From: Candidatus Nitrosotenuis sp.
GTDB taxonomy: Archaea; Thermoproteota; Nitrososphaeria; Nitrososphaerales; Nitrosopumilaceae
Reading direction: 5' to 3'
Assembly: GCA_004322465.1 (NCBI GenBank)
Contig: SCVO01000077.1
Span: forward strand, 1-54,883
Length of the DNA stretch: 54,883 nucleotides
In this document: piece by piece, positions 23,420 through 38,054 of the stretch
Position numbering within the stretch: position 1 is the first letter of the stretch
Layout of the letters: every line of letters begins with the position of its first letter
Translations under genes and position numbers: made by a program
Notes under the pieces: generated by a model
The model's database searches: none
Told to the model about the DNA's origin: nothing
The model's input: only the letters and a program-made list of their open reading frames with translations

Positions 23420-24376
23420 TTGTTCAAAGACAGCATGTTAGTTGGTTTTTTTGTCACGGGATTGTTGATTTTTTCTTATCAACAGGTAGCCTTTGGACAA
23501 ATGGACAAAAGTTTGGAAGTAAGAATTCTAAACGGCGCGGCAGACAACGAAACTGCAAAGGCATTCTACCCGGACATACTTCCAATTGAACCAGGAGACA
23601 GCGTGACGTGGGTAAACGAGGACTCTAAGGCGCACAGCATCACAAGTGGGATGCCAGAGGCGCCCGAATATTCAGGAATATTCTTTAAAACTGGAAACAT
23701 TGACGCACAAAATTCAGGCTCTGTCAAAATAACGGACCTCAAGGACCATTTTGCATTCTATTATTTTTGCGAGATTCATCCGTGGCTGACAGGAAAAATA
23801 GTCGTATCAACTGCCCCGGAGTCACAGCCAGACACGGCGCTTCCAATTGCCATTAGCCGCACACAGTACAGCAAAGGCCAAGACGTTCAGGTCACAGGCA
23901 AGGTTGCCGACGACTATGCAAAGATATCGTATGATCTTTTGGTGTATGACAAAGCCAAGTTAGTCGATATCGTATCGGGGCACTTTAATGAAGACTCGAC
24001 GCTGAGCGAAACAATACACACTGACAGACTAGCCAGTGCAAAATACACACTCAAACTTGTTTACGGCCTGCCGACGCAAGTAGCCAGCACTGGATTTGAT
24101 TTGGAAAACGCCCCGGAATACAAAATTCCAGGTTGGATTAAAACGGAAGCAAAATTGTGGTCAAGCGGGACCATTTCTGACGGGGAGTTCATCAAGACAA
24201 TACAATACTTGTCCAAAGAAAAGATAATCGACTCCCAATCACAGATTGACCAGCCAAAGGCAATCCCATACTGGATAAAGACAAACGCGTCGTGGTGGAC
24301 AAACGGCCAGATTTCAGATGCAGAGTTTGTCAATGCTTTAGAGTACCTGGCAAATGCAGGAGTCATACAAATTTAG
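23420..24376 (+). CDS. Secreted cupredoxin (plastocyanin-like) protein with tandem C-terminal WIK/WW repeats
   Basis: 318 aa; PGDSVTWVNEDSKAHSITSG...FYYFCEIHPWLTGKIVV copper site; two C-terminal ~40-aa repeats. Confidence 0.8.
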   Translation: MFKDSMLVGFFVTGLLIFSYQQVAFGQMDKSLEVRILNGAADNETAKAFYPDILPIEPGDSVTWVNEDSKAHSITSGMPEAPEYSGIFFKTGNIDAQNSGSVKITDLKDHFAFYYFCEIHPWLTGKIVVSTAPESQPDTALPIAISRTQYSKGQDVQVTGKVADDYAKISYDLLVYDKAKLVDIVSGHFNEDSTLSETIHTDRLASAKYTLKLVYGLPTQVASTGFDLENAPEYKIPGWIKTEAKLWSSGTISDGEFIKTIQYLSKEKIIDSQSQIDQPKAIPYWIKTNASWWTNGQISDAEFVNALEYLANAGVIQI

Positions 24377-26826: not shown

Positions 26827-27894
26827 TTGCAAAATGGGTCAATGGGACTCAGGCGGTATTTGGCCACTCGCGGAATCATACTGTTTTGTGTTTTATTGAC
26901 AACCCTTTTGCTGACAATAATGCTTGTCGGCTCCAACATGGACGTCATTCTAAAGAAGGGAGTGTCAATTCAGATAAGATCAGAAATTACAGAAAACAAA
27001 CTGCTCATGAATAGTTTCAAGGACACAAAAGAGCTAGATCAGTTCATACAGAACCGAATTGACGACAGGATCAGAAATCTTGGTCTTGACTCCCCGTGGT
27101 ATTCCCCAAACAGAATTGCGCTTTCCATGTACAAGATTATCACGCTTGACTTTGGCCATGCAACGTTTTTGTCAAGCGATTCTGGGTCATCGCTAGTATC
27201 AGATATAATTTTGGAAAAGCTGCCAAGGACTGTGTTGTTGTTCACCACTGCAACCATAATCATATCCCTGATTGGCATATTTCTCGGCGCGCTTGCCGGA
27301 AGCAAGACGGGATCAAAAATCGACAAGTTGACATCGTCGTTTGCAGTCATCAGCGGAAGTTTTCCAGTGTGGTGGATAGGAATGCTGATGATTTTTGTTT
27401 TCGCGTTCACGCTTCACCTGTTTCCTGCAAGGGCAACGCCACTCATTGCCTCAAACGATCCCGGGTACATACCGTCACTATTCTACCACATGACGCTTCC
27501 GCTAATCACCATAGTCCTAATCGGGTTTGGAACGTGGGCATACATGGTTCGCAATTTCATGATAAACATAATGCATGAGGACTTTGTCGCAGTCAAAAAG
27601 ACAATCGGTATTTCGCAAAGAAAGATCATCTTTCATAGTGCGCTGAAAAATGTCGCACCGCCAATAATCACAGTGCTGGCACTGAGTCTTTCTGGCTCAC
27701 TTGGAGGGGCAATCATCACAGAGGCAGTCTTTGATTGGCCAGGCATGGGAAGACTGTACTTTGAGGCAATCAACGTGATGGATTTACCAGTGATCATAGG
27801 CGCAACATACGTGCTGACTGCATTTTTCCTAATCAGCATATTTGTCTCAGATCTGCTGTACGGCTACTTGGATCCAAGGATAAAGACGATTTAA
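26827..27894 (+). CDS. ABC transporter permease, DppB/OppB-like
   Basis: 355 aa; GALAGSKTGSKIDK, EDFVAVKKTIGISQRKIIFHSALKNVAPPIITVLALSLSGSLGGAIITEAVFDWPGMG. Confidence 0.85.
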   Translation: MQNGSMGLRRYLATRGIILFCVLLTTLLLTIMLVGSNMDVILKKGVSIQIRSEITENKLLMNSFKDTKELDQFIQNRIDDRIRNLGLDSPWYSPNRIALSMYKIITLDFGHATFLSSDSGSSLVSDIILEKLPRTVLLFTTATIIISLIGIFLGALAGSKTGSKIDKLTSSFAVISGSFPVWWIGMLMIFVFAFTLHLFPARATPLIASNDPGYIPSLFYHMTLPLITIVLIGFGTWAYMVRNFMINIMHEDFVAVKKTIGISQRKIIFHSALKNVAPPIITVLALSLSGSLGGAIITEAVFDWPGMGRLYFEAINVMDLPVIIGATYVLTAFFLISIFVSDLLYGYLDPRIKTI

Positions 27895-27895
27895 C

Positions 27896-29254
27896 ATGGG
27901 GCTACTCAGAAATGATCTTAGTGCAGGCATTCTAAAAAGCAAAGTCGGCATCAGCGGGGTTGGAATCTTGGCATGCCTTATTTTAGTATCTGCGTTCACC
28001 ATAGTCTTCATTCCGCTTGACACATACAAGCAGTGGAACAACCCAAGCAGCTGGACATCGTTTCCAAAATCCGCACTTCCGTCATGGGTAAACTTTTTCC
28101 TTGTGAAGAAGATCCCAGAGCACCAATTACTTGAAAACGTCCAGACTGCAATACAGACAGGACGGGACACAAGAAAAATAATACAAGATTTTGAGACGGA
28201 TTATTCCTTTGATTACTTTCCAAACGATTTCATATACCAGTATACGGTAGAATATCAAGGAACTCCAGTGTTGGAGTTTGACGTCACAAGGCCAGACGGA
28301 GTTACCCTGCATTTGTTGTCATATTCCCTGCCAGACGCAAAATCCAGAACCGTGTTTTCAGATAAGATTTTTTCAGCAAACGAATCCATACGAAAAAACA
28401 TTTTGCTTGCGTCTGACAGATTCGCATTCCCAATTGACAACATGGCAGTTGAGGAGGTGGTTTTCTCAAAGATAGGCACCCACGAAGTGTTAAAGGGAAA
28501 ATACACGTTTGTGACAAAAATATCTACAACAGATACGCAGAGCTCAGTCCACGATTCAAATCTGATCATAGGAGGCAAGGTTTTTGGCATGATTGGAACA
28601 GACGAGCAGAGACGGGATTTGGCAATCGGATTGCTGTGGGGAACGCCGCTTGCGTTGTTTATCGGAATAACAGTTTCAGTGGCATCAGTAGTATCTGGCC
28701 TGGTTTACGGGGTTTTTGCAGGCTACAAGGGAGGAAAAACGGACGAGTCCATGATGCGATTCAACGACATCATTTACGCGTTGCCCGCACTTCCGTTTCT
28801 CATAATCTTGGCAGTCACAATAAGCAACAGCATATTTTTGATGATTGGTTTTCTGATGATTTTCGGTTGGGTTGGGATTGCCAAGGTTTCAAGAAGCATG
28901 GCTCTGCAAATAAAAAACAGGCAGTTTGTCGAAGCGTCCAAGACAATGGGCCAGAAAAGCTCAAAGATAATCTTCAAGCACATCATACCTCAGATCATGC
29001 CATATGCGCTTGCAAGCATTGCAATATCAGTGCCCGCCGCAATTACAACGGAGGCAGGACTGAGCTTTTTGGGCCTAGGAGACCCAAGCTTTCCGACATG
29101 GGGGCAGATACTTCACGACGCAAGCACGCATGGGGCAGTCACTCGAGGGTTGTGGTGGTGGGTAATACCTCCCGGGATAATGATAACAATCACGGGACTT
29201 GCCTTTGTTTTTGTTGGAAACTCTCTTGACAGTTCGTCCAGAATAAGGCGCTAA
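27896..29254 (+). CDS. ABC transporter permease, DppC/OppC-like with large extracellular insertion
   Basis: 452 aa; FVEASKTMGQKSSKIIFKHIIPQIMPYALASIAISVPAAITTEAGLSFLGLGDPSFPTWGQIL. Confidence 0.85.
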   Translation: MGLLRNDLSAGILKSKVGISGVGILACLILVSAFTIVFIPLDTYKQWNNPSSWTSFPKSALPSWVNFFLVKKIPEHQLLENVQTAIQTGRDTRKIIQDFETDYSFDYFPNDFIYQYTVEYQGTPVLEFDVTRPDGVTLHLLSYSLPDAKSRTVFSDKIFSANESIRKNILLASDRFAFPIDNMAVEEVVFSKIGTHEVLKGKYTFVTKISTTDTQSSVHDSNLIIGGKVFGMIGTDEQRRDLAIGLLWGTPLALFIGITVSVASVVSGLVYGVFAGYKGGKTDESMMRFNDIIYALPALPFLIILAVTISNSIFLMIGFLMIFGWVGIAKVSRSMALQIKNRQFVEASKTMGQKSSKIIFKHIIPQIMPYALASIAISVPAAITTEAGLSFLGLGDPSFPTWGQILHDASTHGAVTRGLWWWVIPPGIMITITGLAFVFVGNSLDSSSRIRR

Positions 29255-32211: not shown

Positions 32212-32233
32212 GTGCGTGTATTGGTTTTTTGTC

Positions 32234-32554
32234 ATGAGCGACACGCGTCTTACAATGATTGGGATCGCGCTCATTTTTGCAGGATTTTTAATATTTGGAA
32301 TCTTTGGCCAAAAATACCATACATTTACGATTCAAGCGCAGGAGTTTGGAGACTGCTATGATTTTTCTGAGGACGGAAAACAAACCAAAATAGATTGTAA
32401 CATAGTACTGCAGAATCAAATTTTGTTTTTCGGGTTTGTCATCGGTTTGATTGGGCTTGGGATATTTTTCCTAGTCAGGGGCGTCAGGGGCAGGTGGGAC
32501 CAGGATGTAAAGCCAGAGGACGCAGTTGGTCCCGGATCATCGTTTCCAAGCTAA
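32234..32554 (+). CDS. Small membrane protein
   Basis: TM MIGIALIFAGFLIFGIFG and ILFFGFVIGLIGLGIFFLV. Confidence 0.6.
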   Translation: MSDTRLTMIGIALIFAGFLIFGIFGQKYHTFTIQAQEFGDCYDFSEDGKQTKIDCNIVLQNQILFFGFVIGLIGLGIFFLVRGVRGRWDQDVKPEDAVGPGSSFPS

Positions 32555-35268
32555 ATTTGGATTACTCCACGTTCCATTAGGTATTGGATTGCCCGGACAA
32601 AATCAGCATTTCCTATTTTGCCTTCTGCCCACCAACCAGCATTGGTTTTAATCCAAGATGGGATTTTTTGTTCGTTATTTTGCGAGGGGGAGGCGGTGAG
32701 GATCTTCTGCTCTGCCAGATATTCGAGCCCCCTTGTAAAATCAGAATCAGAGGCGCTGCCCTGCGACCACGACTCAGCGCCGCTTTTAATCCAGTCGGGA
32801 ATCACCAGCGATTTATTTTCTAGAATCGTCGGGATTTCGTCAAGTGCGACCACGCCAATTCCGCTTGACTTGAGATCATCCAGTACATCATCTAAGAACT
32901 GGAGCTTGTGCGAATCAACCTCGTTTTTTGATACCTGCCCATCCTTGACTGCAAAGTCTTGAGATTGCAAACTAATTACAGCGTAACCATACTGGCTTAT
33001 GTTGGACTTTATTTTGGCCAGAGCCTTTTGAGGTACGGTCCCAGTGTAAAACGGGTCATCGTCCATCAGATTCGCAAGCAGTGATGTGCTGGGCACGTGT
33101 TTTAGCGAATCAGCATAAGGCGGGGAATCCCTTGCAACGCTTGCGCTAAAGTAGGGCATCTTGTTTTGCGCAGTAGCCTCAAGGGTTTGCGCGTTAAACA
33201 AGTCAAGCGGCGGCACGAACGTGGTAGGCTTCACATGCAGAGTTTGGAATATCTTGTCGTTTGTTTTTTGGATGCTAGCTGCCTGCTGTTCCTTGTCATA
33301 CGCAGTGTGATCAACATACTCCCAACCCCTGTTCGCTATTCTAAGAGATGCATCGCTTTGTATTTTTTCCTTTATCAGATTAACTACTTTTGGATCACTG
33401 CCAAAGAATTTTCCAATCACGCTTACTGTGAGCGGGACGTTTTTCTCTCCAAACTTATCGATTGCTGCATTCTGCACGTCATTTAGATAGAAATCCTGAA
33501 CGTTATCCATCCTAAATGCAACACAGTTACAGTTTGCGGGCTCTTTTGGTTTGTCATTAGCCTGCGGTTTTTGTGGCGCCTGTTTTTCAAACGAGCTTAT
33601 TTCGCCAATGGTCACTATTTTGAGCCCCTGACTTCGTACTTTGTCTATTAGCAATCCGAGTTGCTGGACGTGAGTTTGATTTACTTTGTTCTGGTACACC
33701 CCATCCGAATATGTAGAAAACTCGTGCGGATGCATCATGACTACAGCATACCCGTAATTGAACAAACTTTCGTTTATCCCGTCAAGCACTTTGTCTATTG
33801 GTTGAACTTTCCAGCTTGCTTCCTGCCTGTCAAGTATTGAGGTTTGTGTTGCAGCCGGGAAATAGTAAAGGGTTGATTTTTTGAATGGTGGCGGCTGCCC
33901 AGTCGACGTGTGAGAGCTGATTTGTGTGAAGTTGTTCTTTTTCATTATGGCAATTGTGTTGTCGTCGTACAGGTTTTCTGGAGGAATGAACGTGGTAGGA
34001 GTTACCCCGAGGACGTCGTGAATTTTTTTGTTTGACTTTGCAAAGTCGTCTGCCTGCTGGTCTTTTGTCAGGGCAGTCATTACCCTGTGCGTCCAGCTGT
34101 GATTCGCTACTTCCAGATCAAAGTTCTCATCCTTTAGTGCGCCTTTAATGAGAGGAACTATCTTCGGATCATCGCCAAACACGTTTGCAATTATTCCGAT
34201 TGTGAGGCTTGCCTGTTTTTGCTCAAACGTGTTAAGAATGTCGGTTTGAGCGCCATTTAGAAAGTAGTCTTGAATGTCGTCGAGTCTGAACGCCACGCAG
34301 TTGCAATTCAGGTATTCCGAGTTCAGATCCGGATTGTGAAGATAAATTTTGAAAATAGTTTCAGAGCCAGATATTGCAATTTTCTTAGATGCGACGGTTG
34401 CCAGGCTGCCGTTGGCGGATTTTGACTTTATGTAGAGGGCATAGTTGCCCACCTTGAGATTTGCAAATCCCGCAAGGCCCTTATCAGATACTGGCGATTC
34501 GCCAAGTTTGTTTTTCTTGCTATCATATAGCTGTGCAACAAAGTCCCCGTCAGACCTGCCGACCTTTGCTTTTGTTGTATTGTATACTTCGACTGAGATT
34601 AGTTTGTCCACGATTGTCGGCCAGTTTGTTACGACTTTGAGCTCCTGGGCAATGTTTGGCAGCAGTTTTATCGGAGTTTGGGTGTATTTCAGGTCAGGCC
34701 CCAGGGAGACCTCGGCGTAATAATAGTCGGTTTCTTTCATCGTAGGGTACATCCACGATCTAAGAGTCTGGCCGTTTGCGTCGGTTTCAGAATAGGCCCA
34801 AAGTTTCCCATCAAAAGACTTGATCCAAACGCCGGCGTTTGCGAGCGGAGTCTCGCCGTCGCTATAAAAAACAGAAAGGCGCAGTCCGCCGGCATTTTTT
34901 ATTGTGATTTCTACACTGTCGCGAGTTTTTTGCAGATCAACAAACGCCGCGTCGCCATAGAGATTGTTCATGTATACTTCAAACTTGTACTTGTGCCCCA
35001 TCGGGAGAGAGTCGACCACAAACGGAATGGCAGTAACAGGAGTAATCTCTTTGAATGGCGTGTTTTCAAAATCACGATACACCTTGATTAGCAAGTTATC
35101 AGGTGGCACTCTGTCGCCGTTTTCGCTCTTTACTGTGATCTCAACTGAGCCAGTATTTTGTTCTTGGTAGGATAGCGCGGGGATGAAAATCAAAAATGAG
35201 ATTGCCAGAAAAATCATGCAGTTTTTAAACATGTCAAATTTTCTATGTTTTCCTAATTTTATAACCAT
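32551..35268 (-). CDS. Secreted protein with two polysaccharide-deacetylase (NodB-like) domains and tandem C-terminal WIK/WW repeats
   Basis: 905 aa; FRLDDIQD...NHSWTHRVM...PTTFIPPENLYDDNT; second copy FRMDNVQD...ANRGWEYVDHT; C-term PSWIKTNAGWWAEGKIGNADFVRAIQYLMERGVIQI. Confidence 0.8.
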   Translation of the reverse strand: MVIKLGKHRKFDMFKNCMIFLAISFLIFIPALSYQEQNTGSVEITVKSENGDRVPPDNLLIKVYRDFENTPFKEITPVTAIPFVVDSLPMGHKYKFEVYMNNLYGDAAFVDLQKTRDSVEITIKNAGGLRLSVFYSDGETPLANAGVWIKSFDGKLWAYSETDANGQTLRSWMYPTMKETDYYYAEVSLGPDLKYTQTPIKLLPNIAQELKVVTNWPTIVDKLISVEVYNTTKAKVGRSDGDFVAQLYDSKKNKLGESPVSDKGLAGFANLKVGNYALYIKSKSANGSLATVASKKIAISGSETIFKIYLHNPDLNSEYLNCNCVAFRLDDIQDYFLNGAQTDILNTFEQKQASLTIGIIANVFGDDPKIVPLIKGALKDENFDLEVANHSWTHRVMTALTKDQQADDFAKSNKKIHDVLGVTPTTFIPPENLYDDNTIAIMKKNNFTQISSHTSTGQPPPFKKSTLYYFPAATQTSILDRQEASWKVQPIDKVLDGINESLFNYGYAVVMMHPHEFSTYSDGVYQNKVNQTHVQQLGLLIDKVRSQGLKIVTIGEISSFEKQAPQKPQANDKPKEPANCNCVAFRMDNVQDFYLNDVQNAAIDKFGEKNVPLTVSVIGKFFGSDPKVVNLIKEKIQSDASLRIANRGWEYVDHTAYDKEQQAASIQKTNDKIFQTLHVKPTTFVPPLDLFNAQTLEATAQNKMPYFSASVARDSPPYADSLKHVPSTSLLANLMDDDPFYTGTVPQKALAKIKSNISQYGYAVISLQSQDFAVKDGQVSKNEVDSHKLQFLDDVLDDLKSSGIGVVALDEIPTILENKSLVIPDWIKSGAESWSQGSASDSDFTRGLEYLAEQKILTASPSQNNEQKIPSWIKTNAGWWAEGKIGNADFVRAIQYLMERGVIQI

Positions 35269-35280
35269 AGCTGAAACGTT

Positions 35281-36168
35281 GTGTCTGATGAATCAACAAG
35301 ATCAATAGTGCAAAGACGCGGACCAAAGATGAATCAGGCTTTTATACGCCAAAGCCAAAGTAAGCAAATGAGACAGGTCATACTTGGCATCATACTGCTT
35401 GGTCTTTTTGCATCGCTGATTCCGGGAATCGTGCATACTGCGGATGCGGCAACAGCTAGCAAGAAAATTTGCGGAGACAAGCTTTGCTCTGAAATAAAAG
35501 GAAAGGCATGTCCCAATGGAGAGCTGCAAGATCCAATAAATAAAAAATGCTACGCTGGATCTTCAGGATGGAAGATTACAGGATATTTTCTTCCACTAGA
35601 AAAAGACTATTCCAGAGACATCCTGGTTTCTGCGTATGTGCAAGGCGCAAAGAAAGACGGCTCCCCGGACTATGTTGAAAACAATTCAACGTATTACATA
35701 AAGCAGTTCAGATCAACGTTTCTCAAAGAAATAGCAGTTCAGGGTTCCGGAAAGACAAATGAAAACAAAGTACTTCAGAGCTGGAAGGACGACTTTATCT
35801 CTCCAAATGGGCAAAAAACTCGATTCTACCACTATGGTAAATGCGCAATGACATTTTCAGGGGTCTGTTTGCCCCTAGCACCAAGTTCACTCAGTGAGCA
35901 AAAAATAATGGTCGCAGTGACTGCCGGCAAGACAGACATGGGCGCAGGAGTTATTGCCCACGGAACACTGTTGCACATTCCAGACATTCCTGCACCGTGG
36001 AACACTAGGACATACTGGGCAACAGACGTTGGAGAATGGAAGGATAAGCACATTGACATATTCACAGGTTACGGGATTGCGGCAAGAGATGCGGCATTTA
36101 AGATAACCAAGCTGCCGCCGAAAGAAAACAGCAGGGTCTTGGCAGTAGGGTTTGACAAAATCAAGTAG
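35281..36168 (+). CDS. Secreted protein with putative 3D-domain/double-psi beta-barrel
   Basis: 295 aa; GKTDMGAGVIAHGTLLHIPDIP...TYWATDVGEWKDKHIDIFTGYG resembles the three-Asp 3D domain pattern. Confidence 0.6.
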   Translation: MSDESTRSIVQRRGPKMNQAFIRQSQSKQMRQVILGIILLGLFASLIPGIVHTADAATASKKICGDKLCSEIKGKACPNGELQDPINKKCYAGSSGWKITGYFLPLEKDYSRDILVSAYVQGAKKDGSPDYVENNSTYYIKQFRSTFLKEIAVQGSGKTNENKVLQSWKDDFISPNGQKTRFYHYGKCAMTFSGVCLPLAPSSLSEQKIMVAVTAGKTDMGAGVIAHGTLLHIPDIPAPWNTRTYWATDVGEWKDKHIDIFTGYGIAARDAAFKITKLPPKENSRVLAVGFDKIK

Positions 36169-36173
36169 AGTAG

Positions 36174-38054
36174 CTATTGTTGCACCCTTTGTGCGCTAGT
36201 CCACTTGGCCTTAAGTCCGACGAATTCTTCAAAAATTGCCTTTAGCTGCAGAACATCTGTTAGCTGTTTGTATCCAAGCACCATAAACACGGAATAGAGT
36301 ATCATTTTCTTGTCATCCTTGTCCATCCTAACTGCCATTGCCGAAAGTAGGTACTGCATTATTATGAACATCCCAAGGGTAAATGTCACATAGTAATAAT
36401 TTCCAACAGCTAACTGATAGATTGCAAAAGCTAAAACCATCAAGCTCGCTGCTGGAACCAAGAGCATGTGAATTGCCATCAGCGGATATGAGAATTTGTG
36501 CAGATACCCAAATCTTGAGTTAAGCAAAATATCAGAGTGCCTCCTTAGCACCTGAAGGTTTCCGCGATACCATCGTTTTCGCTGCTTGTAAAAATCACGC
36601 AGTTTCTGCGGCGCCTGAGTATACGCAGTTGCCATGTTATTTCCGCTTATTATCATTCCAGATCGTAGAACCTTTAGCGTGGCATCAAAATCCTCAACAA
36701 GGGTGTCATTATGGTATGCCCCCGCCTCCTCAAGCTTGCTTTTCTTAAATGCCCCAAGGGCCCCAGGAACTATGGTGATTGCGCCAAAATAATCAAGACC
36801 CCGCCTCATGATTTGTATGCCAGACAAATATTCAAGAGCCTGGCACCACGTAAGGCAGTTGATTCTGTTTCGGATCTTTATGTTGCCCGCAACTGCTGCC
36901 ACGTCTTCGTTTGAAAACGATTTTGCGATGTGCCTTAGTGCAGTATGGCCAATTATTGTATCGGCATCCAGGATTACAATTATCGAGCCTGTCGCATAAA
37001 GCAATCCAGCGTTGAGTGCCGAAGCCTTTCCACCGTTTTCTTTGTGTATTACTTTGACTTTGTCTTTGTAGCGCGATGCGATTTCCAGTGTTTGGTCCTT
37101 GCTCCCGTCATCGATCACTATAATTTCCTTGTCAGGATAATCCGTGGAGAGGAGCGACTCTATCGTGGTTCGGATGACTTTTTCTTCATTGTATGCAGGC
37201 ACGAGTACGCTCATCTTTGGATACGAGTCGGGCTCTTTTAGCAGTGCCTCTTTTGAAACGCTTCGTATCGCAAGAGGAATGAAAAGCATCGTCTGCCAAA
37301 ACGACAGCGTCAGGCACCAGACAAAAATGGTTTGCATGATTGTCATAAGCCCATTAGCATATCCGTCGTATGCAATCATTGTTCCAAGTACAAACGGCAT
37401 TATCAGTACAATTATCGAGTAAGAGGAGGCACCGCGGCGCCCATAGGAATATTGCGATTTCGGCTCTCTTTTGGATACGATTTGATAGAAAACCATCACA
37501 GCTGCTACTGAAATTGCAATCATGCTGAGATATGAAAACATGCTATAAGCAGTAATTACAAGCAATGCAAAAATCACGGACGCCAGCAGTACCAAGACAG
37601 GATCGGTTTTTGCCCGCACGGTTTTAATTTTGGTTTTCTGCCCCATCGGTTCCGTTTTAGATTCTTCAGGAATCTGCGCCATTTCGTGATTCTGCGGCTC
37701 TGCCTTTAACACAGAGTCAAAACATGCCGCATGAAACCACTTGTCGTGGTATCGGATTGTGCGTTCTTCAAGATTTAATCCGTGATTGCAAGATGCACAG
37801 TTGTGTATGCGCCTAACTGGGTTCGAGGAAGAAGCAGGGGCGCTCAGTCGTTGCGCAGTTTTTACATTGGCGTTTTTGACAGGTTGAGTTTTTTGCAGCT
37901 GCGCATGTTTTTCGCTTAGGTATTTTTTGTCAGATTCGTAGATTTTCTTCCCTTTTTCAAGCGAATGCGATATGTAAGACAGTCTACCGGCATCACCCAT
38001 CCCAGATGCTTGTAGTTTTTTTACCAGTTCTAGCAGAATTGCGTCATTATCCAC
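36174..38054 (-). CDS. Processive family-2 glycosyltransferase with N-terminal LIM-like Zn knuckle
   Basis: 626 aa; VIDDGSKD, ILDAD, LVEDFDATL, KQRKRWYRGNLQ; N-terminal CASCNHGLNLEERTIRYHDKWFHAAC. Confidence 0.85.
   Translation of the reverse strand: MDNDAILLELVKKLQASGMGDAGRLSYISHSLEKGKKIYESDKKYLSEKHAQLQKTQPVKNANVKTAQRLSAPASSSNPVRRIHNCASCNHGLNLEERTIRYHDKWFHAACFDSVLKAEPQNHEMAQIPEESKTEPMGQKTKIKTVRAKTDPVLVLLASVIFALLVITAYSMFSYLSMIAISVAAVMVFYQIVSKREPKSQYSYGRRGASSYSIIVLIMPFVLGTMIAYDGYANGLMTIMQTIFVWCLTLSFWQTMLFIPLAIRSVSKEALLKEPDSYPKMSVLVPAYNEEKVIRTTIESLLSTDYPDKEIIVIDDGSKDQTLEIASRYKDKVKVIHKENGGKASALNAGLLYATGSIIVILDADTIIGHTALRHIAKSFSNEDVAAVAGNIKIRNRINCLTWCQALEYLSGIQIMRRGLDYFGAITIVPGALGAFKKSKLEEAGAYHNDTLVEDFDATLKVLRSGMIISGNNMATAYTQAPQKLRDFYKQRKRWYRGNLQVLRRHSDILLNSRFGYLHKFSYPLMAIHMLLVPAASLMVLAFAIYQLAVGNYYYVTFTLGMFIIMQYLLSAMAVRMDKDDKKMILYSVFMVLGYKQLTDVLQLKAIFEEFVGLKAKWTSAQRVQQ

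Follow-up and report, generated by a model that had tools for sequence, protein, structure and literature searches.

The NodB deacetylases linked to glycosyltransferase family 2 (GT2) enzymes of the kind considered here, namely those of the Pga, Ica and Nod systems, act on polymers or oligomers, and the Nod enzymes make short oligomers. The two activities also occur as single bacterial proteins (NodB-GT2 and GH18-NodB-GT2 fusions), annotated as "bifunctional polysaccharide deacetylase/glycosyltransferase family 2", and no described product was found for these fusions. Ammonia-oxidising archaea (AOA) are among Earth's most abundant microbes, and they attach and form matrix. Exopolysaccharide (EPS) genes are reported for N. 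viennensis, with up-regulation on filters of exported polysaccharide deacetylases, while the EPS capacity of Nitrosopumilales is said to be limited (PMC11561398). PMC7554672 infers EPS-related gains for every AOA ancestor that it reconstructs, and SEM images of N. maritimus, N. viennensis and N. franklandianus show putative EPS, although a transcriptome study found the proposed biofilm CAZyme candidates unchanged, adhesion genes excepted (PMC12448741). Our literature search, outside of which most subscription papers lay, returned no description of a Nitrosopumilaceae GT2-NodB locus, its MltA-like partner or its TackOD1 association. The initial annotation of the DNA studied here held that a dedicated polymer system had not been described for AOA; that remark survives for the conserved GT2-NodB pair, on which no paper was found, but is too broad in view of the EPS gene sets reported for Nitrososphaera viennensis (PMC11561398).

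Here, we describe a locus of Candidatus Nitrosotenuis sp. that probably makes and tailors a secreted amino-sugar polymer. The window, meaning the whole 54,883-nt stretch that was analysed, is contig SCVO01000077.1 of a 1.68-Mb draft genome, and reading its open reading frames placed three genes where they had initially been annotated. The genes and their parts are as follows.

32551..35268, minus strand: secreted NodB-type protein, 905 aa (Polysacc_deac_1 matches)
32554..32817, minus strand: C-terminal tandem ~40-aa module of the NodB-type protein (WIKxxAxWWxxGxI...IQYL...GI)
32824..33531, minus strand: NodB domain 2, residues ~580-815, metal ligands lost
33589..34305, minus strand: NodB domain 1, residues ~322-560, D-D ... 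HSWTH ... MHP kept
34333..35214, minus strand: N-terminal region of the NodB-type protein, residues ~19-312, weak prealbumin/Ig-like matches
35281..36168, plus strand: secreted 3D/MltA-like protein, 295 aa as longest ORF (family profile)
35923..36111, plus strand: 3D-like region, residues ~215-277, D249 and D259 corresponding to MltA D297 and catalytic D308
36174..38054, minus strand: processive-type GT2 synthase, 626 aa (motifs, Pfam/NCBIfam, AlphaFold model)
36555..37220, minus strand: GT2 catalytic core, residues ~279-500, with DDGS, DAD, ED and QRKRW
37710..37805, minus strand: LIM-like Cys/His segment of the GT2, residues ~84-115 (E=0.028, below cut-off)

The GT2 and NodB genes are co-directional, whereas the 3D/MltA-like gene is antiparallel to both, so that the three do not form a single operon. 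The ends of the 3D/MltA-like and GT2 genes are 5 bases apart; the start of the former, taken as the longest ORF, is 12 bases away from that of the NodB gene. Since homologs begin at Met17 or Met30 (window positions 35329 or 35368), the true gap between the 3D and NodB genes is probably 60-100 bases, and such a later start would leave space for a divergent promoter between them. Upstream of the locus, two ORFs at 26827-29254 (plus strand) read like Dpp/Opp-type ABC permeases.

The synthase comprises an N-terminal helical segment, a LIM-like segment and a catalytic domain flanked by predicted membrane helices, four on its N-terminal side and two on its C-terminal side; hydropathy likewise gives four segments before the catalytic domain and two after, with one further peak within it. 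The LIM-bearing N-terminal part is found in the GT2s of Nitrosotenuis, Nitrosopumilus and Nitrosarchaeum and is missing from Nitrosotalea-type orthologs. The protein matches the Pfam GT2 family (E=8.8e-36) and carries the D, D, D, ED, Q(Q/R)xRW motif set of processive GT2 synthases, as DDGS (315), DAD (363), EDFD (454) and QRKRW (491); DDGS, DAD, ED and QxxRW are invariant or nearly so in homolog sets of 26 and 36. An AlphaFold model (pLDDT 82.8, from an alignment of 36 sequences) has a GT-A domain between membrane helices, which is the fold of the processive GT2 family, and a PDB structure search with this model ranked BcsA and the hyaluronan synthases first, over 400-550 columns. Motifs and predicted fold together thus strongly suggest a processive synthase of the BcsA/hyaluronan-synthase type. 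The initial reading of a processive, polymer-type GT2 is borne out by the retained motifs and by structural matches to BcsA and hyaluronan synthases, as opposed to single-addition dolichol-type enzymes. Nitrosotenuis genomes also hold a second, divergent GT2 of the same family, 44-47% identical (L080:11541-13511, plus strand, and L175), with a TackOD1 gene neighbour of its own.

Conservation was surveyed in 115 Nitrosopumilaceae genomes, excluding that of the window, with a GT2 called at E below 1e-140. The GT2 was carried by 45 of them, and a NodB gene adjoined it on the same strand in 44, with the 3D gene lying between the two in four; in the sole exception, the GT2 sits at a contig end. The genes flanking the pair vary between groups of genera, which argues that GT2 and NodB travel as a unit. 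Similar pairings recur farther afield. For example, haloarchaeal plasmids of Natrinema, Halorussus and Halorubrum carry a DUF2334 gene followed by a GT2 gene, their ends overlapping, and DUF2334 also matches the window NodB protein. NodB genes occur near the closest Chloroflexi GT2s, Kocuria (L200) encodes NodB-GT2 as one protein with a chitinase gene adjoining, and Prevotella (L207) combines GH18, NodB and GT2 in a single protein. At three loci (L154, L165 and L170), the search beside the GT2 turned up a TackOD1 gene but none for NodB. In a GT2 tree, archaeal and Chloroflexi sequences group together, with the fused proteins on their own branch beside them, while PgaC of E. coli and Acinetobacter separates from the GT2s of archaea and of NodB fusions on a branch of its own. 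Several forks are weak and NodC, BcsA and two others have long branches; for this reason, the tree is read no further than its grouping of archaeal, Chloroflexi and fused NodB-GT2 sequences.

Taken as a whole, these gene neighbourhoods support the GT2-NodB pair as the real unit of the locus, in which the synthase would be functionally tied to a secreted deacetylase. The initial annotation had proposed a coherent set of three neighbouring genes; synteny is indeed kept for the pair, but the trio as such is not conserved, the 3D gene being patchy and missing in the majority of genomes that carry the GT2. A neighbouring gene at 32216-32554 encodes a 112-aa protein with hydrophobic segments, which was considered as a PgaD analogue but seems an unlikely one: its synteny tracks one genomic context and not the pair, and it did not turn up next to the pair in other genomic contexts.

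The whole NodB protein matches Polysacc_deac_1 with E=9e-27 (93.9 bits against a cut-off of 23.1), both Polysacc_deac_1 stretches exceed the cut-off as DNA matches, and a single N-terminal hydrophobic segment spans residues 14-32. The N-terminal region (~19-312) is kept even in homologs that lack one NodB domain. To read the catalytic residues, the domains were aligned to domain 1 of the window protein, which keeps the full set (D, D, H, H and the motif-5 H). In domain 2, DN replaces DD, R/Y replaces both His and Q replaces the motif-5 His, and this domain is broken in all 36 linked two-domain NodB proteins; it is probably non-catalytic, judging by these residues. The two polysaccharide-deacetylase domains originally called are therefore both present, domain 1 intact and domain 2 degenerate.

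The full residue set of domain 1 is present in 9 of the 36 two-domain proteins, and most of the others listed have Asn for the second metal His. In most linked NodB domain 1s (L078-L105), the second His of HxxxH is replaced in this way in an otherwise intact motif, for which an altered metal site or a new activity are candidate readings. Deacetylation may consequently be weak or absent in most Nitrosopumilaceae outside the subset to which the window belongs. Nitrosotalea-type loci have a pair-linked protein with one broken NodB domain and, on the other side of the GT2, a divergently oriented, intact, stand-alone NodB gene. Some loci would thus offer one sound deacetylase, to judge from the residue survey and this intact gene; at two loci (L120 and L169), the NodB frames are split. 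The ~40-aa tandem module (WIKxxAxWWxxGxI..F...IQYL...GI) lacks a Pfam match and occurs in 19 stretches of the window genome, including a predicted secreted protein at 23420-24376 (plus strand) that is plastocyanin-like by eye. It is a candidate surface- or glycan-binding module of AOA.

A further neighbour of the GT2 emerged from more distant loci. Genes with a TackOD1 domain (PF18551), several of which also have a receiver domain, lie directly upstream of the GT2 in loci of Bathyarchaeota, archaeon HR01, Nitrososphaera and Chloroflexi. With a TackOD1 profile built from genes upstream of GT2s, a match was found within four genes of the GT2, in several orientations, at 71 of 119 loci, a count that takes some genomes twice. 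TackOD1 lies near the GT2 in most Nitrosopumilus and Nitrosarchaeum loci, upstream of it at L176, L178, L179, L181-L183, L185-L187, L189-L192 and L194, and after NodB in most of L084-L105. Among the best 30 TackOD1 loci across the phylum, eight had a GT2-like ORF and one a NodB-type ORF within ~1.5 kb. The profile search found no copy beside the window pair and two elsewhere in the window genome. In Natrinema (L197:4299-5684, plus strand), a TackOD1 match and DUF2334 share one protein directly before the GT2, which supports the link by a fusion. TackOD1 is described as a domain of obscure function; it has been noted in type IV pilus loci, and receiver domains are fused to BcsA-like GT2s in Methanobacteriaceae (PMC5847659). 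The simplest reading of these associations is that TackOD1 is a putative regulator of polymer synthesis.

The gene between GT2 and NodB encodes a protein with an N-terminal hydrophobic segment (residues 33-51). The window copy by itself falls short of the 3D family (PF06725; E=0.17, 12.6 bits against a cut-off of 23.8), and a PDB search with this single sequence gave no match. However, 9 of its 13 homologs match PF06725 at E<=1 (best E=1.4e-9), and the top PDB match of the family profile is E. coli MltA (E=0.003), with hhalign giving E=1e-6 for profile against MltA. It is at the family level, then, that the early suggestion of a 3D-like middle protein was upheld. D249, D259 and T100, the equivalents of MltA D297, D308 and Thr99, are invariant in all 13 homologs; the residue aligned with catalytic D308 is Ala in 2pi8, as expected of that MltA D308A mutant. 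The T100 correspondence is by motif only and is not significant alone, T100 lying in a TGY motif, kept in 13 of 13, that also holds MltA T99. The MltA D261 equivalent is shifted or lost in Nitrosotenuis copies and falls in an AVD motif in most other homologs. A predicted structure from seven sequences (pLDDT 37.6) is too low for any fold claim.

In 3D/MltA enzymes, D162/D308 is catalytic and is oriented by T91/T99, and YuiC, the minimal 3D enzyme, releases a 1,6-anhydro-GlcNAc product from penta-NAG (PMC4499186). The 3D gene was found in 36 of 250 family genomes. It occurs in 21 of 45 GT2-positive genomes as against 3 of 70 GT2-negative ones (Fisher test, 6e-8, which ignores kinship). Of 38 3D genes, at least 10 lie next to the pair, versus 0.24 expected with shared ancestry left uncorrected. 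Three arrangements occur: between GT2 and NodB (Nitrosotenuis), beyond the GT2 (L083, L090, L091 and L119) and beyond NodB (L101 and L102). Together with the repeated adjacency, this variety suggests that the trio is a local variant of an association that is looser overall. AOA are not known to have peptidoglycan, so another GlcNAc-type substrate seems likely for the 3D protein, and the GT2 product would be the obvious candidate.

It may instead be that the 3D/MltA-like protein has nothing to do with the pair and attacks the bacterial peptidoglycan of competitors, its position being a chance insertion. Such a role would fit the action of the MltA family on peptidoglycan and a gene that is antiparallel, patchy and, in several genomes, far from the pair, and it is compatible with polymer synthesis by GT2 and NodB. 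It is nonetheless unlikely, given the repeated adjacency in at least three arrangements, the co-occurrence with the GT2 and, in two genomes (G054 and G060), a 3D gene within about 1 kb of TackOD1, itself a frequent GT2 neighbour.

For the preferred reading, a secreted amino-sugar polymer, a pathway of three steps can be proposed. Most firmly, the membrane GT2 would polymerise a nucleotide sugar, most likely UDP-GlcNAc, and pass the chain across the membrane by a channel of its own, like BcsA and hyaluronan synthase; as regards UDP-GlcNAc supply, an archaeal GlmU model matched only below cut-off in the draft genome of the window. The secreted NodB protein would then deacetylate part of the chain via domain 1, while domain 2, the N-terminal Ig-like part and the C-terminal module would probably bind polymer or cell surface. 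Less firmly, and in some species only, the MltA-like protein may act as a lytic enzyme with a 1,6-anhydro mechanism, its cuts trimming the polymer or setting it free. This mechanism needs a free O6, which a 1,6-linked chain lacks, so that a chitin- or chitosan-like polymer, and not 1,6-linked PNAG, is predicted if the 3D protein cuts it. Cells might use the product as capsule, matrix or attachment material. The pair gives a testable route to the slime of these archaea and supplies concrete targets for an AOA polymer and its synthase, since two cultured organisms, Ca. Nitrosotenuis chungbukensis (L116) and Nitrosotalea devanaterra (L153), carry it.

A bolder and rather doubtful extension is that TackOD1 acts as the phosphorelay switch of a widespread archaeal and Chloroflexi polymer synthase, in analogy to the way c-di-GMP and PilZ control the cellulose and PNAG synthases of bacteria, and that the MltA-like protein has been repurposed from peptidoglycan to the cells' own amino-sugar polymer. 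Should the TackOD1 link hold, a domain family that lacks a function would gain one.

More specific is the view that this is a true archaeal PNAG system in which the GT2 makes poly-beta-1,6-GlcNAc and NodB partly deacetylates it, as in PgaC/PgaB or IcaA/IcaB, the pairs to which the initial annotation likened the genes. PgaC_IcaA (TIGR03937) is indeed the top NCBIfam model for the window GT2, the next being far behind, its relatives (archaeal, Chloroflexi and fused bacterial proteins) score 180-210 bits, and the GT2 is paired with a deacetylase. The score of 199 bits is, however, less than half of the curated cut-off of 422, PgaC sits on a separate branch, in a tree that has long branches, no small two-TM, PgaD/IcaD-like partner was seen to be conserved and the MltA-like neighbour could not cleave a 1,6-linked chain to give 1,6-anhydro ends. 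Strict membership in Pga/Ica is therefore rejected on score and branch, and a PNAG product appears improbable. Equally hard to sustain is a pair that builds or edits a short glycan on lipid or S-layer glycoproteins with no free polymer, in the face of QxxRW, helices on both sides, the long BcsA/hyaluronan-synthase match and the action of known GT2-linked NodB enzymes (Pga, Ica, Nod) on polymers or oligomers. In its favour are the match of the archaeal mannosyltransferase PcManGT to the GT domain in the structure search and the S-layers and N-glycans of AOA noted in literature cited by PMC12448741.

Set against known systems, the GT2 shares with BcsA and hyaluronan synthases a fold, motifs and membrane helices on both sides, but identity in the structure match is 16-20% and no PilZ domain was detected in the window GT2. 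The 3D motif and the catalytic Asp and Thr are held in common with MltA (GH102) and the Sps-YuiC 3D enzymes, whereas the window protein is archaeal and short, with one of three Asp shifted or lost. NodBC likewise has neighbouring GT2 and NodB genes, yet the window GT2 scores just 70 bits to the NodC model. PgaBCD and IcaADBC also combine a processive GT2 with a secreted CE4 deacetylase; the archaeal GT2 differs in falling below the PgaC_IcaA cut-off, on a different branch, with no PgaD/IcaD found. The haloarchaeal DUF2334-GT2 operons are alike in their adjacent deacetylase-family gene, and their GT2 is 40-42% identical to that of the window, although their NodB-type gene is shorter (346-461 aa) and lies upstream of the GT2. 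Finally, the NodB-GT2 and GH18-NodB-GT2 fusions of Kocuria and Prevotella have the same two enzymes, are neighbours in the GT2 tree and also recur with a glycan-cutting partner, in the form of a GH18 domain or an adjoining chitinase gene. The archaea differ in keeping the genes separate and in having, where a cutting enzyme is present, an MltA/3D-like one in place of GH18. We place the locus, as a variant, with the known NodB-GT2 polymer systems.
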